From Spongiibacter marinus (GTDB taxonomy: Bacteria; Pseudomonadota; Gammaproteobacteria; Pseudomonadales; Spongiibacteraceae), in assembly GCF_016906995.1 (NCBI RefSeq), contig NZ_JAFBBD010000001.1, positions 372,001 to 436,000 of the forward strand: 64,000 nucleotides of DNA, in the 5' to 3' direction. Position numbers and translations under genes: made by a program. Position 1 is the stretch's first letter, and each line of letters begins with the position of its first letter. Below, in pieces: positions 41,046-56,496 of the stretch. Below the pieces are notes generated by a model. The model was not told the DNA's origin. It made no database searches and saw only the letters and a list, made by a program, of their open reading frames with translations.

Positions 41046-42185
41046 TCAGGCGTTGGTAAAATGTTCCACGTGAAACCTTCTTATCTCTTTTGCGTCACCC
41101 AGCCAAGCGTCATCAAGATCTGATGCTTCTATGGATGTCGCGAAAACCTGCATATCCATGCTCGCGATCACACCAAACAGGGCAGCGCGGCGCTCTCTAT
41201 CCAACTCTGCGGGCAAGTCATCGACTAACAACAGCACATCTAGGTTTTGCCGTCGCATCAACCCGCATTGTGCTAATTTCAGCGCACATACCAGCGTTTT
41301 AATCTGCCCGCGCGACAATACCTCGGCCGCATTAGTACCACCGTAACTAAAGCGAATATCGGCGCGGTGCGGACCTACTCGCGTAAACCCTTGCCGCAGA
41401 TCTTGCTCTCTGGATTCATTTAAGAGCCTACGCAAATCCTCTGCGCCTAAACGACCCTCGTCGTCATCCCAGCCACTGATAAAGCGCATAGTAAAACGCG
41501 AGGCATCCAGAAGGTGGCTTGCGTCCTGCCCAGACCCACCCTGAAGCTCGTTAAGCAGACCTACAAACGCTTCCTCTAGCTCCGCAAACTGAGCGCGGCG
41601 CATAGCCGTGATTTTCGCCCCTGTCAGCGCAATTTCCTCCTCCCAGGGGGAGAGTATTGCATCCGATAGTTTACCACGTCTGAGCAGTGTATTTCGCTGC
41701 TTTACCGCTTTTCTATACCTTGACCACTCCTCGTAAAAACCAAGATGTTTCACGTGGAACACTGACCAATCGAGAAACTGCCGGCGCACAGTTGGCGAAC
41801 CTTCAAACAATTGAAAGCTATCGGGATTGATCAACTGCACGGGAAGCAAGCCCGCTAACTCCGAGAAGGACCGGAGTCGTTCGCCCGCATACTTGACCAG
41901 CAGCGACTTATCCCGCCCGCGCTGGATGCCAAGCATCCGACTATCGTCAAAGGCACCGTCAACCAACTCTCCCCTTACCAATAAAGAAGGGGAGTCAAAA
42001 TTCACCACGCTATTAATTTTTCGTGAACGAAATGACCGCGTGAGGGAAAGCATATGTATCGCCTCAAGCACCGAAGTCTTACCACTACCATTCACACCAT
42101 GGATGAAATTAAAGGTAGAGAGATCACTCAACACACAGCGCCGCAAATTACGAAAATTGGAGATATGTAATTCACTTAACCGCAT
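41046..42185 (-). CDS. recF: DNA recombination/repair protein RecF
   Basis: 379 aa. SMC-like ATPase that helps load RecA at single-strand gaps. Walker A (HGVNGSGKTSVLEAI) is near residue 32, the ABC signature-like LSRGQIKTLV and Walker B LLLVDDLPAELD lie near the C-terminus. The coding sequence also contains two parS-like 16-mers (41062-41077 and 41746-41761), which therefore encode residues such as FHVEHF near the C-terminus. Lies between dnaN and gyrB. Confidence 0.97.
   Translation of the reverse strand: MRLSELHISNFRNLRRCVLSDLSTFNFIHGVNGSGKTSVLEAIHMLSLTRSFRSRKINSVVNFDSPSLLVRGELVDGAFDDSRMLGIQRGRDKSLLVKYAGERLRSFSELAGLLPVQLINPDSFQLFEGSPTVRRQFLDWSVFHVKHLGFYEEWSRYRKAVKQRNTLLRRGKLSDAILSPWEEEIALTGAKITAMRRAQFAELEEAFVGLLNELQGGSGQDASHLLDASRFTMRFISGWDDDEGRLGAEDLRRLLNESREQDLRQGFTRVGPHRADIRFSYGGTNAAEVLSRGQIKTLVCALKLAQCGLMRRQNLDVLLLVDDLPAELDRERRAALFGVIASMDMQVFATSIEASDLDDAWLGDAKEIRRFHVEHFTNA
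41062..41077. other. parS: parS centromere site 1 (within recF)
   Basis: TGTTCCACGTGAAACC differs from the consensus palindromes (TGTTCCACGTGGAACA / TGTTTCACGTGAAACA) only at the last base when mixed arms are allowed. It lies at the 3' end of recF, about 16 kb from parA-parB and 4 kb from the candidate oriC. Confidence 0.85.
41746..41761. other. parS: parS centromere site 2 (within recF)
   Basis: TGTTTCACGTGGAACA has one consensus arm of each common type around the CACGTG core and fits TGTTYCACGTGRAACA at every position. It is 684 bp from site 1, inside recF. Confidence 0.9.
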
Positions 42186-43497: not shown

Positions 43498-44970
43498 TTA
43501 GGTTGTCAGAAGTCTTATCAAATTCTTATAGTCTTCCCTGATATCGGCATCAGCGTCGCGCAATTCTTTTATTTTACGGCAGGCATGCAACACGGTCGTA
43601 TGGTCCCGACCACCAAAACCCTCGCCGATTTCGGGCAAACTGTGGTTGGTTAACTCTTTGGAAAGCGCCATTGCTAACTGCCGCGGACGCGCCACCGAAC
43701 GACTGCGACGCTTGGACATTAAATCGGCGATTTTAATCTTGTAATACTCTGCGACGGTGCGCTGGATATTATCCAAACTCACCTGCTTATCCTGCAGCGC
43801 CAGCAAGTCTTTTAGCGATTCTTTAATAAGCGGAATATCGATGGGCTTGGCCATAAACCGTGAACTCGCGATAACCCGCTTCAACACACCCTCAAGCTCG
43901 CGGACATTCGAGCGAACACGCTGAGCAATAAAAAACGCCGCATCAGAGGGCAGGGGGATATTCTCTTGCTCTGCCTTTTTCAGCAAAATAGCTACCCGCG
44001 TTTCCAACTCTGGCGGCTCTACCGCAACGGTAAGCCCCCAACCAAAACGCGACTTCAACCGTTCTTCCAGCCCCTTAATTTCTTTGGGGTAGCGGTCACA
44101 GGTAAGGATCATCTGCTGACCGCCTTCCAGCAAGGCGTTAAAGGTGTGGAAGAACTCCTCCTGGGAACGCTCTTTTCCTGAGAAAAACTGAATATCGTCA
44201 ATTAACAGCGCATCCACCGAGCGGTAATAGCGCTTAAATTCATTGATCGCATTGAGCTGCAAGGCTTTAACCATATCGGCAACAAAGCGCTCAGAGTGAA
44301 GATATACCACGCGAGCATTGGGGTTTTGTTGCACCAGGGAGTTACCCACCGCGTGCATAAGGTGCGTTTTACCCAAGCCAACCCCACCATATAAAAATAG
44401 CGGGTTATACGCGCGCCCCGGGTTCTCAGCGACCTGGCTTGCTGCCGCGCGGGCAAGCTGGTTGGACTTACCCTCTACAAACGTTTCGAAGGTATAGCCC
44501 TCCATCAAAGAGCTTTGATGGCGAATACCGCCTTCAACTTCCACTTGCCGCTGAGGGGTGGTAGTGGGTGCTGCCGCAGTGGAGGACTGGATAATTGCCG
44601 GAGCAGGTACCGGGGCAACGCCCTCATCCCCCGCGGGTGCACTTTCTGTGGCAGCAGGGCTTTGACTCAGGTCCTCACCATAACTGGCAGGAGGAGTAGG
44701 GCGTTGGCGCGCCATTGCCGATTGCTGGCGATCGGCAATGGCCAGCTCAACATTGAAGCCTTGGCCGCCGGCGAACTCTGCAACCAGCTCTTCAATCCGA
44801 GCAAAAAATCGATCGTTGACCCAATCTTTAACAAAGCGATTAGGCGCCAGCAGGCGCAACCAACCTTCTCCAGCCTCTAAACGCAGCGGCCGAATCCAGG
44901 TATTGAACTGCTGCGCGGGCAACTCCTCTTGAAGAACCGCTAAGCACCGCTGCCATATGGCGTCAGACAA
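43498..44970 (-). CDS. dnaA: Chromosomal replication initiator DnaA
   Basis: 490 aa. Domain I (about 1-80), a long Pro/Ala-rich variable domain II (about 85-150), AAA+ domain III with Walker A ([15 protein letters not shown]) and Walker B (LLIDDIQFF), and domain IV with the DnaA signature [15 protein letters not shown] for box binding. Initiates replication by opening oriC. Read leftward, away from the candidate oriC in the gap to rpmH. Confidence 0.98.
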
Positions 44971-45475
44971 AATAACACTCCCAAAACCAAAAATACCCGC
45001 CCAGCGAACACCGACCTTGTAACCACAACAAAGGCGCCGCGTAAACGAGGTAAAACCCAGCTAAACCTATAAACAGGCCGGACATTCTACGCCTTCAACC
45101 CAAACTTATCCACACCTACGCGACTTTATCAACAATCGCGAATCGTTAAAAAATACCTAAGTTTCAATGATATATAACAATAAACAATAAGACTCTATGG
45201 ATAAAACAGAACAACATGTGGATAAGCTCGGGATCAAGATGTGAATAACTTGTCAATAGGGTGTTATCATCGAAATCATCTAGCGAAGACCCTCAACCAG
45301 CCGGAAATTCCGATAACGAAGCCAGTGAGAGGCTTGGCAAATAAACCCCTTACAGGCATTGCTATTAGCGGTGCTGTCCACTAAAATTCGCGATCCGATT
45401 TTTCGTGCTCCAGCCACTTATTCTGGCAGGAGACAAAGAACTCGTCGTATAACGACACTGTGAACGGACAAGATC
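44971..45475. other. oriC: Candidate oriC between dnaA and rpmH
   Basis: 505-bp gap where gene direction switches. DnaA boxes: perfect TTATCCACA at 45106-45114 (plus) and 45217-45225 (minus); TTATTCACA (fits TTATNCACA) at 45240-45248 (minus); one-mismatch copies at 45126-45134 (TTATCAACA, plus) and 45196-45204 (TTATCCATA, minus). The boxes flank an AT-rich tract around 45145-45192 that could be the unwinding element. The dnaA-rpmH location is the known Pseudomonas-type origin. The region also carries the dnaA and rpmH promoters. Confidence 0.8.
45359..45387 (+). promoter_or_regulatory. Candidate promoter for rpmH-rnpA
   Basis: TTGCTA (45359-45364) and TAAAAT (45382-45387) at 17-nt spacing, about 90 nt upstream of the rpmH start. 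The -10 is one base from consensus, the -35 two bases. Confidence 0.45.
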
Positions 45476-45610
45476 ATGAAAAGAACTTTTCAACCAAGCA
45501 ACCTGAAACGCGCCCGCACTCACGGTTTCCGTGCTCGCATGGCAACCAAGAACGGCCGCAAAGTATTGAACCGTCGTCGCGCTAAAGGCCGTGCTGTTCT
45601 GTCTGCATAA
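45476..45610 (+). CDS. rpmH: 50S ribosomal protein L34
   Basis: 44 aa: begins [20 protein letters not shown] and ends RAVLSA, the conserved L34 sequence. A small basic protein of the large ribosomal subunit. It is the first rightward gene after the candidate origin, 31 nt before rnpA; the pair is conserved across bacteria. Confidence 0.98.
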
Positions 45611-46022: not shown

Positions 46023-46283
46023 TTGCAGCGCCTACTTATTGCCTGCATCAAGTTTTACCGCCTGTGCATCAGTCCGCTGATGGCACCACATTGCCGTTTC
46101 TATCCCAGCTGTTCCCATTACGCTATCGACGCGATCCGCGAGCACGGTGCCCTGCGTGGCAGCTGGCTTGCCCTGCGCCGCATCGGTCGCTGCCACCCGT
46201 TAAATCCCGGCGGCTACGACCCCGTTCCACTCTGCCATCACTGCCAAAACGAAAACAACTCAATCAAGGCTATTAAGCAATGA
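46023..46283 (+). CDS. yidD: Membrane protein insertion efficiency factor YidD
   Basis: 86 aa, TTG start 3 nt after the rnpA stop. An amphipathic N-terminus ([16 protein letters not shown]) is followed by the family motif [16 protein letters not shown] with three conserved cysteines overall. YidD assists membrane insertion through YidC/Sec. It overlaps the yidC start by 4 nt (ATGA), so coupling is likely. The TTG start is inferred from family alignment. Confidence 0.92.
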
Positions 46284-47968
46284 TCGATATTCAGCGCTAC
46301 CTACTTATCGCCGCCATCGCCGCGCTCTCATTTATGCTGCTGGTTGAATGGAAAAACTTTGATGGCGGCAACACTGCTCCGCTGGCCGCGGCCGCTGCAC
46401 TGGCTGAGCAACCGGCCAACGTCGACGTTTCTCTACCCACCAACGACGCTGGCAGTGACGATTTACCCACCGCCGACAATGTCGACAACAGCGTTGAAGA
46501 CTTCGCCGATAAGGGCGTAGACAGCCGCTACATCCATATTCGTAACGATGTTCTGGACCTGAAAATCGACCTACAGGGCGGCGACATTGTCTATGCCGCA
46601 ACCTTGGAGCACCGCGACAGCATCGAGGAAGAAGAAGCCTTCGTACTGCTGGAAAACAACCAGCGTCGCAGCTATGTGGCCCAGAGCGGCTTAATCGGTA
46701 AAAACGCCACCGACACGGCGCAGGGCCGACCCATGTTTAGCGCCAGCCTTGAGAGCTTCTCCTTGGAAGAAGGTCAGGACAGTGTTTCCGCGAATCTGCG
46801 CTATCAATACAGCGACGACATTCTTATCACCAAACGCTACACCCTGCAGCGTGGCGATTATCTGGTAAAACTCGACTACCTTGTTGAAAACCGCTCTAGT
46901 GAAGCCTTTAGTGCCTCACTGTTTGGCCAGCTGAAGCGCGACAACAGTGTCGACCCCGGTGTCAGCGACGACGGCTTGTTCGCCATGAAACCCTTTATGG
47001 GTGTCGCCTATTCCAGCAGCGAAGATCCCTACAACAAACTGGCCTTCCACAAGCTGAAAGAAAAGCCACTCAACGAGCAAATGGAAGGTGGCTGGGTCGC
47101 CATAATCCAACACTACTTCCTTAGCGCCTGGGTGCCCGACCAATCTGCCAACAACAGTTTTAAAACCGTTGTTACACGCCAGGGCTTAAATATTGTTCGC
47201 TTCACCTCGCCGTCGCAAACGGTTGCTGCCGGTGAGCAGGGCACCTTGAGCGCGGCGATTTATATCGGTCCTAAAGACCAATACCGTTTAGAGGAAATCT
47301 CTCCTGGTCTGGAACTCACCGTCGATTACGGCTGGCTGTGGTGGATAGCGCAACCCTTGTTCTGGCTGCTGACCAAACTCTACAGCGTCTTCGGCAACTG
47401 GGGTTGGGCGATTATCGGCGTTACCGTGTTGGTAAAAGCCGCCTTCTTCCAGCTCAATGCCAAGGCCTTCACCTCCATGGCAAATATGCGCAAGGTGCAG
47501 CCTAAACTGATGGAGCTGCGCGAGCGCTACGCCGACGACCGTCAAAAGCAGTCCCAGGCGATGATGGAGCTGTACAAGAAAGAAAAAATTAACCCCGTCG
47601 GCGGCTGCCTGCCCATGCTGGTGCAAATGCCAGTATTCATCGCCCTCTACTGGGTGCTGATGGAAAGTGTTGAGCTGCGCCACGCACCCTTTATGTTGTG
47701 GATTAATGACCTGTCAGCAATGGACCCTTATTTTGTCTTGCCGCTGATTATGGGTGCGTCGATGTTCATTCAGCAGAAGCTGAACCCGCCACCGGCAGAT
47801 CCTATGCAGGCGAAAATCATGCAGTGGATGCCCATCGTCTTCACCTTCTTCTTCCTGTTCTTCCCCGCGGGCTTGGTACTGTACTGGGTGGTCAACAACA
47901 CCCTGTCGATTATTCAGCAGTACATTATTACCAAGCGCATCGAAAAAGCTGGCTTGCCGTCTCGTTAA
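46280..47968 (+). CDS. yidC: Membrane protein insertase YidC
   Basis: 562 aa. An N-terminal membrane helix (about 5-22), a large periplasmic beta domain (about 60-340), and the conserved C-terminal five-helix insertase domain (about 355-555), with the hydrophilic-groove helix and the [20 protein letters not shown] segment. Inserts proteins such as Fo subunits a and c, whose genes lie 12 kb downstream. Position after yidD is standard. Confidence 0.97.
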
Positions 47969-47971
47969 GCG

Positions 47972-49327
47972 ATGAGCCAGCAAGACACCATCGCCGCCAT
48001 TGCCACGCCGCCCGGCAAAGGCGGCGTTGGTATCATCCGCATTTCGGGCAGTAAAAGCCTGGCCATTGCCGCTGCGCTGATGGATCGCAGCCCGCAACCT
48101 CGGCGTGCCCACTTCGCCCATTTTCGCGAGATTATCGACAACGGAACGGATGTTATCGACCAGGGGCTGGCGTTGTTTTTCCCCGGCCCCAACTCCTTTA
48201 CCGGCGAAGATGTTCTGGAACTGCAGGGTCACGGCGGCCCGGTAATTATGGACCGCCTGCTCAAGGCCTGCCTGCGTGCCGGTGCTCGCATGGCGCGGCC
48301 TGGCGAGTTCTCCGAGCGCGCGTTTCTGAACAACAAAATCGATCTCGCCCAAGCTGAAGCCATCGCCGACTTGATCGATAGCGCCTCAGAGCAGGCCGCT
48401 CGCCAGGCGATGCGTTCACTAGACGGCGCCTTTAGTCGCGAGATAGACCAACTGGTCGAAGCGGTCACCGTATTGCGGATCTATGTCGAAGCGGCGATAG
48501 ACTTTCCGGAAGAAGAAATCGACTTCATCAGCGACAGCCGCGTCGCCGACGACTTGAGCGCCATCAAACAGCAGCTTCAGCATGTCAGCAACGCCGCCCA
48601 GCAAGGCAGTTTGCTTCGCGACGGTATGACCGTTGTTATTGCCGGGAAACCCAATGCGGGTAAATCCAGCTTGCTGAACGCCCTGGCCGGGCGAGAGTCT
48701 GCCATCGTTACTGACATTGCCGGCACCACGCGGGACATACTACGCGAAAACATTCTGATTGACGGCATGCCGCTGCACATTATTGATACCGCCGGTCTGC
48801 GCGACAGCGATGACCCGGTGGAACAAGAGGGCATTCGTCGAGCCTGGCAGGAAATCGACAAAGCGGACCGCGTCCTACTGATCGTCGATAGCCACCAACA
48901 GCGCCACGCCGATATACCCGATACCTTCGCCGAGCACGCCAATGCCGGCAAACTCAGCCTGATATTCAATAAATGTGATTTGAGTGGCGAAACGGTGCGC
49001 GAGGACACGCAAGGCGAGCTGCCCACGCTCTACCTCAGTGCCAAGGCAGAGCAGGGCATCGACCTGCTGCGCAACCACCTCAAACGCTGCGTTGGTTTTG
49101 AAGACGGCGACAGCCCGTTCATTGCCCGGCGGCGGCATATTGAAGCACTGAATACTGCCCGCGAGCATCTCCTGCAAGGCGAACACCAGCTCCACCACTA
49201 TAATGCCGGCGAACTGCTCGCCGAAGAGCTCCGCCTCGCCCAGCAAAGCCTGTCAGAAATCACCGGTGCCTTCACATCCGACGATCTGTTAGGCCGCATC
49301 TTTTCCAGTTTTTGTATCGGAAAATAG
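47972..49327 (+). CDS. mnmE: tRNA uridine-5-carboxymethylaminomethyl GTPase MnmE
   Basis: 451 aa. An N-terminal folate-binding domain ([20 protein letters not shown]), a helical domain interrupted by a G domain with [24 protein letters not shown] and NKCD motifs, and the C-terminal CIGK tail. Works with MnmG to modify U34 of tRNAs reading NNA/NNG codons. It lies 3 nt after yidC. Its partner gene mnmG lies 5.3 kb further on, separated by a three-gene cassette. Confidence 0.97.
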
Positions 49328-49439
49328 CTATCCCTATTATCACTTCATGCGCAGTACAATTTGCGACATAGATGTGAGACCCCAGCTACACTTATCGTAA
49401 GTTACTACCGTTAAAATTTTCCGCCACAAGGACGTCTCT

Positions 49440-51407
49440 ATGGCTGACGCTACCCGCCACTTTCTATTATTACTACTGGTCGCTAGCAGCGCCGCCACCC
49501 TACCCAGCCATGCCCAGTTGTGGGATAACGAGGCACTGCCCGTTGTGCTTACACCTGCCCGCCTGAAACAAAGCCGCAGCGAGGTTCCCGCCAGTGTCAG
49601 TGTGATCGACCGTCAAATGATCATCGCATCGGGAATACGCCGTATCCCCGAATTATTCCGGCTGATACCCGGCACATCAGTCGGCGCACGCGACGGCTGG
49701 AACCACGTGGTCAGCTACCACGGCACAAATTATCGCGACTCGCGGCGCATGCAGGTGCTGGTAGATGGACGCAGCATCTACCAAGCAGGCCTGGCAACGG
49801 TAAACTGGAACGATATTCCCCTGGCAATTGAAGACATCGAACGTATCGAAGTCGTCCGGGGCCCCTCCACGGCAAGTTACGGCGCCAATGCGTTTTTGGG
49901 CGTCATCAATATTATTACCCGTCACCCCGACGATGCCGACAAACTCTACCTACAAGCCCGCAAAGGTGATAATCAGGTCGAGGACTACCTGCTCAGCCAC
50001 GCCGGTAGCTTCGAGGGCGGTAAGTACCGATTGAGCCTACAAAGCCGTCGCGATGATGGTTTTGAAGTCAACCGCGACGGTGAAGACCGCCGCGACAGCG
50101 ATAATAGCGACACACTCAACCTGCGCTATGAAAAGGCCCTCGACCAGGCCAATATCAGCTTGGCGATGGGCTACAAACAGGGGTGGGTGACCGATGACTT
50201 CGCCGATATCGATGTCACCTCACCCGATACCCGTCACCGCAACCATTTTGTTTCCGCCAAAATGAGTTGGGACTTAAGCAAAGACCACCATCAACACTTG
50301 CGCATTGACTACTCCGGTCAAAAGCAGCAAAAAGAATGGCAGGCGGTACTGCCGCCGGCGTTTATCGGTCAGCCCACCCATCCCTCACCACTGGTGCGCG
50401 TTGATGCCAACGAAAACAGCCGGCAAACTCGCCAAGACATTGAGTTTCAGGACACCATGGTGTGGTCACCAGACTTAAAGACAGTGGCTGGCATTCACAT
50501 CAAGCACAACCGAGTTAGCTCCGAGACGTACTACGATGGCAGCCGCCGCAGCGACAGCATCCAGCTGTTTGCCAATGCCGAATACCGAATCAGCGACCAT
50601 GTTACCGGCAATGTTGGTGCCTCGTGGGAACGGGACAGCAACGACAACAAAGACCATCTCTCGCCCAGGGTTTCACTGCACTACCACCTGAACAATCACC
50701 ACAGTTTTCGCGCCGTCTACTCCGAAGCAGTGCGCAGCCCCGACTTATTGGAAACCACGGCCGATTGGACCTATCGCGCTAAAAACATCACCCCCACTCA
50801 CAATGGCCAAACCACCGGCGAGTACGTTGTTAAAGCTACGGGGAACCCAGATTTGCGCGCGGAGAAAATTTCCTCTCGCGAAATTGGCTACTACGCCAAC
50901 TTTCAACACATCGGCTTACAGTGGGATATAAAACTGTTCCGCGACCACCTAAGCAACCTTGTATCAGACTCAACCGCACTGGATAAATTCTCCCCAGAGA
51001 ACAGCAACCGCCTGCGCCAACAGGGCATAGAAACCGAGCTGGATTATCGCCCATCGCCCAACTGGCTTTTCCACGCCAGCTACGCCTACATCAACTCCGA
51101 CACCACAACCCAAAATGAAGAGAGTTTCACCCCCAGCAATAATTTCAGCGCGCTGCTCAGTTATAAATTTTTAAGTAATACTCAACTTTCACTCAGCCGC
51201 TACTACAGTCAAAACACGCGTCGCCGGGGGAAAAATACCTTTTCACGATCAGATTTACGGCTGGCTCACACCCTGAATCTGCGCGGCACCGAAGTGCAGT
51301 TAGCCTACGTGGCACGATATCAGCATGACGATAACAGCGAACTGTTATCGGATAACTTTTACCGTGAAGAACTGCGACAGCTATTCACACTGAGCCTGCG
51401 CTACTAA
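49440..51407 (+). CDS. TonB-dependent outer-membrane receptor
   Basis: 655 aa. Signal peptide about 1-26 (ending SHA before Q27), plug domain (about 45-155) with RIEVVRGPSTASYGANAFLG-type core, then a 22-strand barrel ending in the aromatic terminal residue Y (TLSLRY). No extra N-terminal signalling domain, so not a FecA-type regulator. Ligand unknown: colicin/vitamin/siderophore-receptor-like plug. Six nt upstream of a periplasmic substrate-binding protein gene and then a hybrid kinase, suggesting one transport or sensing unit. The gene has no close relation to its mnm neighbours. Confidence 0.93.
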   Translation: MADATRHFLLLLLVASSAATLPSHAQLWDNEALPVVLTPARLKQSRSEVPASVSVIDRQMIIASGIRRIPELFRLIPGTSVGARDGWNHVVSYHGTNYRDSRRMQVLVDGRSIYQAGLATVNWNDIPLAIEDIERIEVVRGPSTASYGANAFLGVINIITRHPDDADKLYLQARKGDNQVEDYLLSHAGSFEGGKYRLSLQSRRDDGFEVNRDGEDRRDSDNSDTLNLRYEKALDQANISLAMGYKQGWVTDDFADIDVTSPDTRHRNHFVSAKMSWDLSKDHHQHLRIDYSGQKQQKEWQAVLPPAFIGQPTHPSPLVRVDANENSRQTRQDIEFQDTMVWSPDLKTVAGIHIKHNRVSSETYYDGSRRSDSIQLFANAEYRISDHVTGNVGASWERDSNDNKDHLSPRVSLHYHLNNHHSFRAVYSEAVRSPDLLETTADWTYRAKNITPTHNGQTTGEYVVKATGNPDLRAEKISSREIGYYANFQHIGLQWDIKLFRDHLSNLVSDSTALDKFSPENSNRLRQQGIETELDYRPSPNWLFHASYAYINSDTTTQNEESFTPSNNFSALLSYKFLSNTQLSLSRYYSQNTRRRGKNTFSRSDLRLAHTLNLRGTEVQLAYVARYQHDDNSELLSDNFYREELRQLFTLSLRY

Positions 51408-51442
51408 GGCCTGTGACCTGGCAACCATCGAGGAAGGAATCC

Positions 51443-52327
51443 TTGAAAAAACTGCTTAAAGGACTTCAATACGCGCTCTTACTGCTCCTGGCAGTGGCGG
51501 CGTATGGTAGTGATAAACCCTCTTTAAAGGTCGACCTAGTGCTCCCTGTGGATAACGTTTCCCTGCGGCAACTTGCCAGTGAAATTGCCAGCCCGAGCGA
51601 CTACCAATTACAGGTCTACATCAACGAACTCCCAGACCCAACGCAGGCCGGAGATGTGCTGTTGCTTGTCTCCGACGGCCTGCTGCCAATGATCAACAGC
51701 GCTCACTACCCGGCCAAACTGGCGCTGTATGCAAACAGTGTGCGCTTTAGCCCCTATCGCGCTGAGAATGCCAGCGCCGTTTACTCAGACCAACCTATCG
51801 CACGACAAATAAAGTTGATCGACGCAATACTCAAGGGCAAACCGGCGCGCATTGCCATGGCCTGGGAAAGCCCCAGTTACCATCAACAACTCCACCAGCT
51901 CACCGACCAATATCCTCAGTACCAATTTAATAGCGAACAAATACCGGCCGACGGATCCGCCTCGCAGCGCAAGCTAAACCGCTTAATCCAGCGCAGCGAT
52001 GTGCTGCTGGCAACACCCGAGCAAAATCTCTACAACGCCGCCACCATCCGCGGCGTACTGCTGGCAACCTACCGCCACCAGAACTTTCTTATTGGCCCCA
52101 ACGCCGGTTTTGTCAGCGCGGGAGCGCTGGCGTCTGTCGTATCAAAGCCCAGCGACTACGCCGCTGAAGCAAAGGCAATGATCAACCATTACCGCGATCA
52201 CGGCCGTCTGCCCATGGCGCGCTATCCACAGCGCTACAGTATTACCATCAACCGCAACGTCGCTGATTCTCTGGGCCTGGTTATCGACGATGAGCAAAGC
52301 CTACTCAACACCTTGAGGGGGCAGTAA
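51443..52327 (+). CDS. Orphan ABC-type substrate-binding protein
   Basis: 294 aa from a TTG at 51443, which follows AGGAAGGA at good spacing; a longer GTG start at 51413 is possible but adds ten residues before the signal. The signal peptide is MKKLLKGLQYALLLLLAVAA. The mature part resembles the ABC_sub_bind family (two-lobe periplasmic binding proteins). No ABC permease or ATPase gene is adjacent. Placed between a TonB-dependent receptor and a membrane kinase whose gene starts directly after its stop, it may present ligand to the kinase rather than to a transporter. Confidence 0.78.
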   Translation: MKKLLKGLQYALLLLLAVAAYGSDKPSLKVDLVLPVDNVSLRQLASEIASPSDYQLQVYINELPDPTQAGDVLLLVSDGLLPMINSAHYPAKLALYANSVRFSPYRAENASAVYSDQPIARQIKLIDAILKGKPARIAMAWESPSYHQQLHQLTDQYPQYQFNSEQIPADGSASQRKLNRLIQRSDVLLATPEQNLYNAATIRGVLLATYRHQNFLIGPNAGFVSAGALASVVSKPSDYAAEAKAMINHYRDHGRLPMARYPQRYSITINRNVADSLGLVIDDEQSLLNTLRGQ

Positions 52328-54190
52328 ATGCGCGCGCGAAGAAGCCTCTTTCAACAAATTTTAATTGCCAGCCTGGCTCCGATGCTGGTGTTGTTTATTG
52401 CCCTGTTTTCCTACTCACTTGCCGCACGACTCAGCGATGCTCAACGCTATCAGATCGATCTGGGTGAACGCATTGCGGAAAACGTCGCGGCCTTGATTGA
52501 GCTACCGCTGATTAGCGGTAACGACCAACAACTCAATGACATTCTCAAGTCGGCGCTGCAGGGCGATATCATCGCCTTACGCGTGTATCGCTTTGGCGAT
52601 AGCAAACCCATTAGCGTCAGCCGAAACACCGCTAACGGGCCTGGTAACACCATAAGTATCCTGCTGGAACAGCGCAGCATCGCGCTAACTGACGCCATCA
52701 CCGGTGAACAGCTGCCGCCCATCAACAATATTCTCGGACGACTGGAGCTGGATATCTCCAATGCCGGGCTCAACGCATTGCAGAGCAGCATAATCGCCGT
52801 GTCCATCAGTATTGCATTGCTGGCAATTCTTCTTGGCGCCGCCTTTGCCCTTCGCGTCAGCCGCCGTTTGTCGCAACCGCTCAGCGAAATCCAGCACGTC
52901 ACGCAAGAGATCGCCAGCGGCAAGCACGGCAGCCGTATCCAACACTTAGAGCGTGGTGAACTCGGCGAACTGCAGCGCCACATCAACGACATGGCCGACG
53001 CCATCGAAGCCCAGCAGCGCGAACTCAGCGACTATGTCGAAGAGCTAAAACTCGCCAAAGGCAAAGCAGAAGAGGCCAGCATGGCCAAGAGCTTGTTCCT
53101 GGCCACCATGACCCACGAACTCAGAACGCCCATGAATGGCGCACTGGGCATGCTGCAGCTGTTGGCCAAGAGCGAACTGAATGAATCCCAACGCCACTAC
53201 CTGGATATTGCCAAAAGCTCCAGCGAGCATTTACTCCACATCGTTAACGATATCCTCGACTACTCGCGCATCGAAAAAGGCGATATGGAGCTCGAAGAGC
53301 GCTTCTTCACACCCCAGTCTCTGCTGGGTGAAATCCTTCAACCCATGCAGCTGGATGCGCAAAGTAAAGGCATCGTTTTCAATACTCAGATCGACCCCGT
53401 TCTGCGCCGTATCGAAATACGTGGCGATGAAACCCGACTGCGACAGATCGTTATCAACCTCGCGGCCAATGCGGTCAAATTCACCCATCAGGGCAAGGTC
53501 GATGTCAGTCTGGAGCAACAGCCTGTCGATGCAGAAACCCTGCAATTAACACTGCGCGTTAGCGACACCGGCATCGGCATTACCCCAGAACAACAAGCCC
53601 ACATATTTGAGAGCTTCCACCAGGCCGATAACTCTACGGTTCGCCGCTATGGTGGCTCAGGGCTGGGTCTGGCCATCGTCAAGCGACTGAGCGAGCTGAT
53701 GAAGGCCGACATCCAGCTGAGCAGCCAGCCCGGTGAGGGTTCCTGTTTCACCGTGGTGTGGCGTACGCACTACCGCAAGCTCGCTGCACAAGCGCAGGAA
53801 AACACGGTGGATGACGAACAGTGTTTCTCTGGGCTCACCGCAATGGTGGTTGAAGACAACCCCGTCAATCAGCTGTTGGTCGCTCGCAGTCTCGAAGGTT
53901 GGGGGGCAGACGTCATTACGGCTAACAATGGCGCCGAAGCGATTAGTCAACTGGAGCAACACCACGCCGATGTGATCTTAATGGATCTGCAAATGCCGAT
54001 AATGGACGGTTTTGAAGCAACGCTGCAGCTCCGCAGGCGCTTGCACCAACACATCCCTGTGATCGCCCTAACGGCTAACACTGATCCAGAAACCCAACGT
54101 CGCTGCTTAAATGCAGGTATGAACGCCTTCCTCTCCAAACCGGTATCGCTAGAGCAATTGCGCAATAGCATTGCTGAACAGCTGCCCTAA
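52328..54190 (+). CDS. Membrane hybrid sensor histidine kinase/response regulator
   Basis: 620 aa. TM1 (about 10-33), periplasmic sensor region (about 34-150), TM2 (about 152-176), HAMP (about 177-230), coiled coil, HisKA with phospho-acceptor H263 ([11 protein letters not shown]), HATPase_c with [11 protein letters not shown] and DTGIGI, then a C-terminal REC domain with acceptor D553 ([11 protein letters not shown]) and K in LSKPVS. No Hpt domain and no DNA-binding output, so a separate phosphotransfer protein and regulator are needed. Start codon directly follows the stop of the binding-protein gene. Confidence 0.93.
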
Positions 54191-54606
54191 GCCCTTTTTT
54201 CTACTATTTATCCCAAGGATAAGATCGGGATAGCCGCGTCTGAGCCTGTGAAAAACCCGTCGATAAGGCGGCACTTACTCACAAGCCTCCAACGCGCGCC
54301 GATTTATCCACATTTCATCCCCAAACCGCTCACACCAAGATGACAGGATATCTGTGGATAAAAACGGTAGTTATAAATAAATAAAAACATTTAAATACAA
54401 TGACTTAGACAACTTACTCACAGAAAAGCGGTTCCTTAACATCAGTATCAAGAATAAAAAAACATAAAACTATCAACATATATATTCATAAAATCTTATT
54501 CTTTAAACACAAAAAAAGAATTGATTAAAAATTCACCAATTCATTGCAGCGCATCCAGAACCCCGTATAATTTCGCCCCCAGTAAAATTACTCATTCAGG
54601 TGTTTT
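54191..54606. other. AT-rich intergenic region with DnaA boxes upstream of mnmG (second origin-like site)
   Basis: 416-bp gap. Perfect DnaA boxes at 54304-54312 (TTATCCACA, plus) and 54353-54361 (TGTGGATAA, minus strand box). Two weaker TTACTCACA copies lie near 54275 and 54414. A 15-bp palindrome TTATCC-CAA-GGATAA is at 54208-54222. The stretch 54361-54540 is about 22 percent G+C by hand count, lower than the dnaA-rpmH gap. The position next to mnmG is where E. coli oriC lies. Origin activity is inferred. Confidence 0.6.
54544..54571 (+). promoter_or_regulatory. Sigma70-type promoter for mnmG
   Basis: TTGCAG (54544-54549) and a perfect TATAAT (54566-54571) with a 16-nt spacer, about 35 nt upstream of the mnmG GTG start. 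It sits at the right edge of the AT-rich DnaA-box region. Confidence 0.7.
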
Positions 54607-56496
54607 GTGGACTATCCGCAGCGATTCGATGTCATTGTTATCGGTGGTGGCCATGCCGGTACTGAAGCCGCCTTGGCTGCTGCCCGTATGGGTAGCCAAA
54701 CCCTTTTGCTTACCCACAACATCGAGACGCTGGGGCAAATGTCCTGCAATCCCGCCATTGGTGGCATTGGTAAGAGCCACCTTGTCAAAGAAGTGGATGC
54801 ACTCGGCGGCGCGATGGGCCTTGCAACAGATCGCGGTGGCATCCAATTTCGAGTGCTTAACGCCCGTAAAGGGCCCGCGGTGCGGGCAACCCGCGCACAA
54901 GCTGACCGCGTGCTCTACAAAGCCGCCATACGAGAAATACTGGAAAACCAGGCAAACCTCGCCATTTTTCAGCAGGCCGTAGACGACCTGATCGTCGAAG
55001 GCGACTGTGTTCGCGGCGTGGTGACAAATATCGGCCTGAAATTCTATGCCAGCAGCGTTGTCCTGACGGCAGGCACCTTCCTCGGCGGAAAAATCCACAT
55101 CGGTCTGGATAACCACAGCGGTGGTCGCGCCGGCGACCAACCCTCCATTGCACTTGCGCACCGCCTTCGCGAACTGCCTTTCCGGGTAGATCGCCTTAAA
55201 ACCGGCACGCCGCCACGCATTGACGCAAAAACCGTCAACTTTGCTGGCCTGGAGCAACAGTGGGGCGATGAACCCCGTCCGGTAATGTCGTACCTGGGTG
55301 ACCGAAGCATGCACCCCGAGCAAGTCTGCTGCTGGATTACCCACACCAACGAGCACAGCCATGAGATTATTCGCAGTGGTTTAGACCGCTCGCCCATGTA
55401 CACCGGCGTAATCGAGGGAATCGGCCCCCGCTACTGCCCGTCGATCGAAGACAAAGTCCATCGCTTTGCCGATAAAAACTCTCACCAGGTGTTCATCGAG
55501 CCCGAGGGCCTGAAAACACACGAGCTTTACCCCAATGGCATTTCCACCAGTCTGCCGTTTGATATTCAATTGGCGTTGGTTCGCTCGATCAAGGGCTTTG
55601 AAAACGCCAATATGACGCGCCCCGGCTACGCCATTGAGTACGACTTCTTCGAGCCGCGTGACCTGAAAAACTCGCTGGAAACCAAATTCATTGCCGGTTT
55701 ATTTTTTGCGGGTCAGATCAACGGCACCACCGGTTACGAAGAAGCCGCTGCCCAGGGCCTATTGGCCGGTGCCAACGCCGCCTTGCTGGCGCAGGGCAAA
55801 GAGTCGTGGTGTCCGCGTCGCGACGAAGCCTACATCGGTGTGCTGGTTGACGACCTGATTACCATGGGCACCAAAGAGCCCTATCGCATGTTTACCTCAC
55901 GTGCGGAATATCGCCTGCTGCTGCGCGAAGACAATGCCGACCAACGGCTCACCGAAAAGGGCCGTGAACTGGGCTTGGTCGACGATGCGCGCTGGGCCGC
56001 GTTCTGCGAAAAGCGCGAAGCCATTGAGCGCCAGCGCCAGCGTATGGCCAGCACGTGGATTCAACCGAATACCCCGCAAGCCGAGCAATTGGCGGCCAAG
56101 TTCAGCAAACCGATCAGTCACGAATACAACCTGCTCGACCTGCTAAAACGCCCGGAGCTTGGCTATGCCGACTTGGCGGACATGGTGCAAGACGGCGAAG
56201 CAGTGGTGGACGATGTCGCCGAGCAAATTGAAATTGGCGTGAAATACGCGGGCTACATCGAGCGCCAGAAAGACGAAATCGAGCGCCTGCGTCGCCATGA
56301 AGAAACGCCGTTGCCACTGGACTTTGACTACAGCGTGATCGAAGGTCTGAGCAACGAGATCAAACAAAAACTGGGCGACGCGCGACCGCAAACCCTCGCT
56401 CAAGCCTCGCGGATTCCCGGCGTGACCCCGGCCGCGGTATCGCTGTTACTGATTACGCTGAAAAAGCGCGGTCTGCTGGAAAGGAAGTCCGCCTGA
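54607..56496 (+). CDS. mnmG: tRNA uridine-5-carboxymethylaminomethyl enzyme MnmG (GidA)
   Basis: 629 aa from a GTG start. FAD-binding [17 protein letters not shown] near residue 14, the conserved [11 protein letters not shown] motif and the [19 protein letters not shown] segment are present, and the C-terminal helical MnmE-contact domain is complete. With MnmE it installs cmnm5 on U34 of tRNA. Preceded by a good promoter and an AT-rich, DnaA-box region; followed by rsmG after 1 nt. Confidence 0.97.

Follow-up and report, generated by a model that had tools for sequence, protein, structure and literature searches.

The window, a stretch of 64,000 nucleotides of the Spongiibacter marinus chromosome, raises the question of which of two textbook positions serves as the replication origin in this genus: the gap directly upstream of mnmG or the gap between dnaA and rpmH. 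The first-pass annotation had pointed out that both gaps carry DnaA boxes and lie approximately 9 kb apart, which is the case, and had called the mnmG site a second origin-like site, asking which of the two is used or whether one is a DnaA-titration or relic origin. The GC skew and the relatives examined here favor instead a reading in which the mnmG gap would be the main chromosome oriC, of the mnmG-linked gammaproteobacterial type, with the dnaA-rpmH cluster mainly an autoregulated dnaA promoter. We regard this reading as highly probable, and it would give a sequence-level answer to the question of which position the genus uses. Among the papers listed, we found no origin study for Neomelitea, Zhongshania or Spongiibacteraceae and, as judged by titles and the starts of abstracts, no comparison of both gaps across the order. 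The window belongs to a 531,766-bp contig of a 3.57-Mb draft genome, and its MnmG shares 99% identity with the protein of Neomelitea salexigens DSM 19753, whose genus is assigned by NCBI to Spongiibacteraceae.

Gene order around the two gaps

43498..44970, minus strand: dnaA (TIGR00362)
44971..45475, no strand: dnaA-rpmH gap with the other DnaA-box cluster (boxes at 45106+, 45126+, 45196-, 45217- and 45240-)
45476..45610, plus strand: rpmH, named by eye from its translation
46280..54190, plus strand: yidC, mnmE, a TonB-dependent receptor gene, gene 51413-52327 and a hybrid histidine kinase gene, jointly of lagging-strand-like composition
52328-54190, plus strand: the hybrid histidine kinase gene, left flank of the mnmG gap
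54607..56496, plus strand: mnmG (gidA; TIGR00136)

The leftward order is gyrB, recF, dnaN and dnaA, then the dnaA-rpmH gap; the rightward order is rpmH, rnpA, yidC, mnmE, the TonB-dependent receptor gene, gene 51413-52327, the hybrid kinase gene, the mnmG gap, mnmG, rsmG and a ParA-like gene. Family searches back gyrB, dnaA, yidC, mnmE, mnmG and rsmG as well as the receptor, kinase and ParA types; the genes that we take to be recF, dnaN, rpmH and rnpA were named from position and sequence, and gene 51413-52327 has no NCBIfam match. Of 17 genus relatives, 16 carry the block of TonB receptor, gene 51413-52327 and hybrid kinase (49440-54190) between mnmE and mnmG, the remaining one being truncated by a contig end; all three sister-genus loci lack the block. 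An extra perfect DnaA box is found at 51547-51555, inside gene 51413-52327. Two parS-like sites (41062-41077 and 41746-41761, with 1 and 0 mismatches, respectively, to the consensus) lie inside frame 41046-42185, presumably recF.

A conserved DnaA-box array precedes mnmG

54191..54606, plus strand: the gap, proposed main oriC (416 bp, intergenic, directly upstream of mnmG)
54247..54255, minus strand: weak DnaA box TTTTTCACA in an R4-like position, with no more than 2 mismatches in 15 of the 18 genus genomes
54275..54283, plus strand: weak DnaA box TTACTCACA, with no more than 2 mismatches in any of the 18
54304..54312, plus strand: perfect DnaA box TTATCCACA, with no more than 1 mismatch in any of the 18
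54353..54361, minus strand: perfect DnaA box TTATCCACA, perfect in 17 of 18
54414..54422, plus strand: R1-like weak DnaA box TTACTCACA, oriented toward the unwinding region, with no more than 2 mismatches in 17 of the 18
54436..54452, plus strand: diverged DnaA-trio-like block (TTAACATCAGTATCAAG), 13 nt past the R1-like box
54370..54560, no strand: candidate DNA unwinding element, AT-rich
54544..54571, plus strand: mnmG promoter candidate (TTGCAG, 16 nt, TATAAT) with a conserved element before it, from conservation in the genus alignment

The two perfect boxes of opposite orientation, 54304-54312 and 54353-54361, were already recognized in the first-pass annotation, and they face each other; three weaker boxes whose positions are conserved across the genus (54247 on the minus strand, 54275 and 54414 on the plus strand) had escaped it. 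Its observation of low G+C content also stands, although the hand count of about 22% becomes a computed 24.6% over 54370-54560; the minimum over 100 bp in the gap is 18%. The window as a whole contains 24 boxes with at most one mismatch versus 8.07 expected, a number reached in none of 100 shuffles. Over the 450 bp before mnmG, the 18 genus genomes carry a mean of 4.33 such boxes versus 0.18 in shuffles, the window's own count being 2. The spacing of the five boxes, 28/29/49/61 bp, is near-fixed, to within one base in most of the 18 aligned genus genomes, and pairwise identity is 0.87 in the box columns (n=45) versus 0.51 in the other columns of 54200-54440 (n=196). One genus genome (L045, identical with G011) has lost the equivalent of the minus-strand box at 54353.

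Duplex instability was ranked among 612 blocks of 500 bp across 306 kb. The AT-rich stretch at mnmG takes rank 1 at 150 and 200 bp and rank 2 at 50 and 100 bp; the ranks of the dnaA gap are 3, 5, 8 and 12 at 50, 100, 150 and 200 bp.

It is barely credible that the mnmG gap does no more than house an AT-rich promoter for mnmG, its DnaA boxes being there by chance or for regulation. The conserved promoter-like element at 54544-54571 would be accommodated by such a reading, but the box array, its spacing, the excess of boxes across the genus and the skew switch described below would not. A consensus promoter scan found nothing before mnmG. A strongly conserved, partly palindromic element (54520-54549) lies directly 5' of the mnmG -10 region and is present in the sister genus too. 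Rfam searches gave no match at the gathering cut-off within 38000-64000.

Strand composition switches at mnmG

The five long genes between the gaps were scored at fourfold-degenerate sites, calibrated in each genome on leading and lagging genes, with 83-91% of these same genes classed correctly. The summed lnLR (leading/lagging) is -7.6 in the window's genome (G000), -17.8 in G015 and -15.8 in G012. Runs of five leading genes as low as this occur in 0 of 28, 0 of 14 and 0 of 37 cases, respectively, and runs of five lagging genes reach or exceed the observed sum in 4 of 12, 26 of 26 and 16 of 26. In G000, two of the five genes supply most of the strand signal. TonB-receptor genes show no bias of their own: all 11 paralogues elsewhere in these stretches score with the strand on which they lie (eight leading positive, three lagging negative), these paralogues also being calibration genes. 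We rejected yidC alone as a strand indicator; it is unreliable, scoring positive in 13 of 16 Vibrionaceae though lagging-strand there.

For both G015 and G012, the cumulative GC skew over 400 kb reaches its minimum approximately 10 bp upstream of mnmG. In G000, a steep fall in the skew ends at mnmG and is followed by a shallow plateau, with the minimum 24 kb to the right of mnmG. Taken together, the lagging-type genes between the gaps and the skew suggest that the forks split at the mnmG gap. Fine-scale skew and a comparison of the gaps across relatives were among the checks recommended in the first-pass annotation, and both favor the mnmG gap as the main origin.

These results bear on a possible Pseudomonas-like arrangement, with the main origin between dnaA and rpmH and the mnmG gap as a relic or DnaA-titration site. 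We consider this very unlikely. The dnaA gap does have conserved boxes and AT-rich DNA, and PMC3056050 describes the P. putida oriC as lying between rpmH and dnaA; against this, the intervening genes are lagging-like in three of three genomes, the skew minimum lies at mnmG in two of three, and five boxes at near-fixed spacing are not expected of a relic. A datA-like titration locus, a box cluster with an IHF site away from the origin, was likewise discarded as a candidate: the gap has no exact IHF consensus and lies at the skew switch.

The dnaA-rpmH gap resembles an autoregulated dnaA promoter

45084..45114, minus strand: dnaA promoter candidate, in which box TGTGGATAA overlaps the -35 TGGATA, followed by 17 nt and the -10 TAGAAT; every one of the 16 readable genus genomes retains box and -10

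The cluster in the dnaA-rpmH gap comprises two perfect and three one-mismatch boxes. Reading toward dnaA, a conserved box TGTGGATAA, 16 nt and a TAGAAT-like -10 element are found in all 16 readable genus genomes, with TAGAAT itself in 14, TATTAT in one and TAAAAT in one. Because the -10 starts 16 nt after the box, the box covers the -35. This overlap is the layout expected for a DnaA-repressed dnaA promoter, and most likely the dnaA-gap site is mainly a self-regulated dnaA promoter, an interpretation drawn from promoter layout and conservation. According to PMC5835720, E. coli dnaA regulates itself by way of a DnaA box, and the E. coli dnaA gap examined here contains a perfect box; in the genus the box overlaps a conserved -35.

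Box clusters at both gaps are ordinary. Vibrionaceae carry the unwinding module described below at mnmG in 16 of 16 loci, yet have boxes at dnaA, on average 3.25 where scored (3.75 in Shewanella). Boxes also remain beside dnaA in five loci with an inverted rpmH-mnmE block, three titled Porticoccus/Porticoccaceae and two only Gammaproteobacteria. As a caution, a DnaA-box cluster at dnaA is not enough on its own to mark an origin.

A candidate R1-trio module at the mnmG gap

The module that we scored consists of an R1 box, approximately 13 nt and a DnaA-trio block. According to PMC7174414, gammaBOriS lists the TAATAATAA DnaA-trio and R1 among gammaproteobacterial oriC motifs. A strict pattern with a 13-nt spacer, placed -170 to -281 before mnmG, is found in all but one of the 16 Vibrionaceae, all but one of the 8 Shewanella, 6 of the 13 Alteromonadales and both Enterobacterales. 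The motif was trained on 30 copies from mnmG gaps of these same four groups, which match by construction; of the 16 Vibrionaceae loci that pass at mnmG, 15 were in the training set. A pass means that at most 1 of 50 shuffles scored as good. A gap-free motif of 42 columns was replaced, as it misses copies with a 12-nt spacer. In E. coli K-12, which is outside the training set, the pattern finds the module at -176 on the plus strand, inside the annotated oriC, as an R1 box, 13 nt and then CTAATAAG; the pattern did not find it in the K-12 dnaA gap.

With the trained motif, 12 of the 18 genus genomes and all three sister-genus genomes pass at the mnmG gap; at the dnaA gap, 2 of 16 genus genomes and none of the three sister-genus genomes do. 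In all but one of the 18 genus genomes, the best mnmG-gap hit coincides with the R1 position of the alignment. The module of the window itself, with its best hit at 54414, is borderline (equalled by 0 of 60 shuffles under one scoring and by 2 of 50 with the trained motif); it is missed by the strict pattern, and the window's genome is among the 6 of 18 that fail the cut. The two passing dnaA-gap modules of the genus sit at +95 and +196 from dnaA, and no genus dnaA gap passes on the rpmH side, from +200 onward, the place of the module in other families; this is a further point against an origin at dnaA. This dnaA-side rule (plus strand, +200 or beyond) was fixed after the motif results had been seen. 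The dnaA-gap counts are of 16 rather than 18 because two loci, L051 (G005) and L044 (G010), stop short of that gap.

The module also bears on an arrangement in which both gaps initiate, with mnmG dominant and the dnaA site auxiliary or conditional, or with the two acting jointly. Each gap is conserved and AT-rich, PMC4403523 mentions the isolation of two autonomously replicating elements from P. aeruginosa, and Pseudomonadaceae pass at both gaps in one of five genomes and at one or the other in five of five. The skew is compatible with this arrangement, since it reports only the dominant origin. Within the genus it nevertheless appears very unlikely: the dnaA gap passes in those two genomes only, and the dnaA promoter accounts for its invariant box.

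Comparison with known origins and a proposed mechanism

The mnmG gap is best read as a member of the mnmG-linked gammaproteobacterial origins in the broad sense, rather than of the narrow E. coli/Vibrio form. It lies directly upstream of mnmG and has a conserved box cluster, an AT-rich element on the mnmG side and a skew switch; the first-pass annotation had proposed an origin-like site at this E. coli-type position, with which the conserved boxes, AT-rich element and skew agree. With the E. coli/Vibrio oriC it shares the place directly upstream of mnmG, the AT-rich side toward mnmG, and a plus-strand R1-like box (here at -193; -176 in E. coli and -184 to -202 in Vibrionaceae) followed by 13 nt and a trio block, which in the window itself is diverged and borderline. 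It differs in box arrangement, which here is - + + - + at 28/29/49/61, whereas theirs is R4-R2-R1 at approximately 74/106, and in its far side, which is a hybrid kinase gene and not mioC. The Dam/SeqA control of E. coli and Vibrio has no counterpart here: the gap contains one GATC site, and SeqA gave no match in 18 of 18 genus genomes, with a positive E. coli control. Nor is there an IHF site between the boxes, the consensus WATCAANNNNTTR having no exact match on either strand of the gap.

With the Pseudomonas-type oriC the gap has in common the TTATCCACA boxes and AT-rich DNA. That origin, however, sits between dnaA and rpmH, and the candidate here is approximately 9 kb away at mnmG; the genus dnaA gap also differs in having no passing plus-strand module near rpmH. 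A pair of putative origins has reportedly been described in P. aeruginosa, by Yee and Smith in 1990 and Jiang in 2006 as related in citing papers, and the presence of two origin-like sites on one chromosome is shared.

In the mechanism that we propose, DnaA would bind the two perfect and three weaker boxes, and a DnaA chain starting on the R1-like box (54414) would extend rightward into the AT-rich DNA beside mnmG and open it. The helicase would be loaded in the opened AT-rich region. The right fork would then pass mnmG, parA and atp, and the left fork the kinase, TonB, mnmE, yidC, rpmH and dnaA genes.

Origin position across the order

We examined 155 genomes of the order and took stretches from 40. 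In 130 loci (128 without two repeats), the module is at mnmG only in 91 (90), at dnaA only in 6, at both in 1 and, with the cut used, at neither in 32 (31); both gaps were scorable in 85 (84) of the loci. The dnaA-side loci are L196 (f19), L186 (f25), L198 (f31), L086 (titled Moraxellaceae), L092 (HF-Dia21) and L179 (f20). The repeats are L084, the same as L195, and L081, the same as L183, each scored twice, and the tests are unchanged without them; L059 and L060 were left out as repeats of L039 and L058. L088, L097, L106, L111, L114, L115, L121 and L135 have no group and were unscored, L113 has less than 450 bp before mnmG, and genome G013 is 84% complete. In L184 (family f7), dnaA is approximately 7.6 kb from rpmH and so not adjacent to it.

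The skew of mnmE has a mean of -0.29 in 48 mnmG-type genomes versus -0.08 in 6 dnaA-type genomes (p=0.002 one-sided, 0.004 two-sided), in a comparison where the dnaA-type set is small and related genomes are not independent. At group level the one-sided p is 0.008 (17 versus 6), and 0.016 without the training groups (14 versus 6). HF-Dia21, which is dnaA-type, runs opposite to the trend with a skew of -0.29, and 21 genomes without a module call have a mean of -0.28, like the mnmG type. The dnaA-side rule set aside 12 of 19 passing dnaA-gap hits, including L181 (Pseudomonadaceae, +61) and two Vibrionaceae; if any strand and position are allowed, the dnaA-only set becomes 7, with a mean of -0.10 (p=0.003). 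The relation between module position and mnmE strand composition suggests, as a lead and not a proof, that the origin switches between two fixed gaps. The number of boxes before mnmG was rejected as a predictor of mnmE skew and is not relied on, because the correlation (Spearman -0.30, p=0.009, 77 genomes) fades at group level (-0.18, p=0.35, 30 groups).

Six loci (L067, L070, L079, L085, L087 and L191) have an inverted rnpA-yidC-mnmE block that points away from the mnmG gap. Three are titled Porticoccus/Porticoccaceae, two Gammaproteobacteria, and one is f37; all were left out of the mnmE-skew test. Their mnmE has no lagging-type skew (mean difference 0.00), as would be expected if the origin is at mnmG.

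Across the order, we put forward tentatively, as possible rather than probable, that the unwinding module has moved between two fixed gaps a few kb apart, before mnmG and between dnaA and rpmH, with the other gap keeping its boxes as a regulatory element, and that Pseudomonadaceae may hold both, in a transitional or truly dual state. The R1 box, approximately 13 nt and trio block form a simple marker that may separate the two origin positions across the order, making a switch of position testable, Pseudomonas included. Family f20 (L177-L181) was taken as Pseudomonadaceae because PrrF, which we take to be a Pseudomonas RNA, is above cut-off in 5 of 5 f20 genomes; it is above cut-off in 0 of 5 non-f20 genomes tested, one of which has a weaker match. 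Four of five f20 genomes pass for the module at mnmG, and two of four at dnaA. Three boxes before mnmG keep their spacing in 5 of 5 f20 genomes and a fourth in 4 of 5, and this array, besides the dnaA-rpmH cluster, is a candidate second origin in Pseudomonas. The f20 boxes lie at approximately -377 (minus), -315 (minus), -297 (plus) and -198 (plus), shifted by 24 in L180 and with one box missing in L181.
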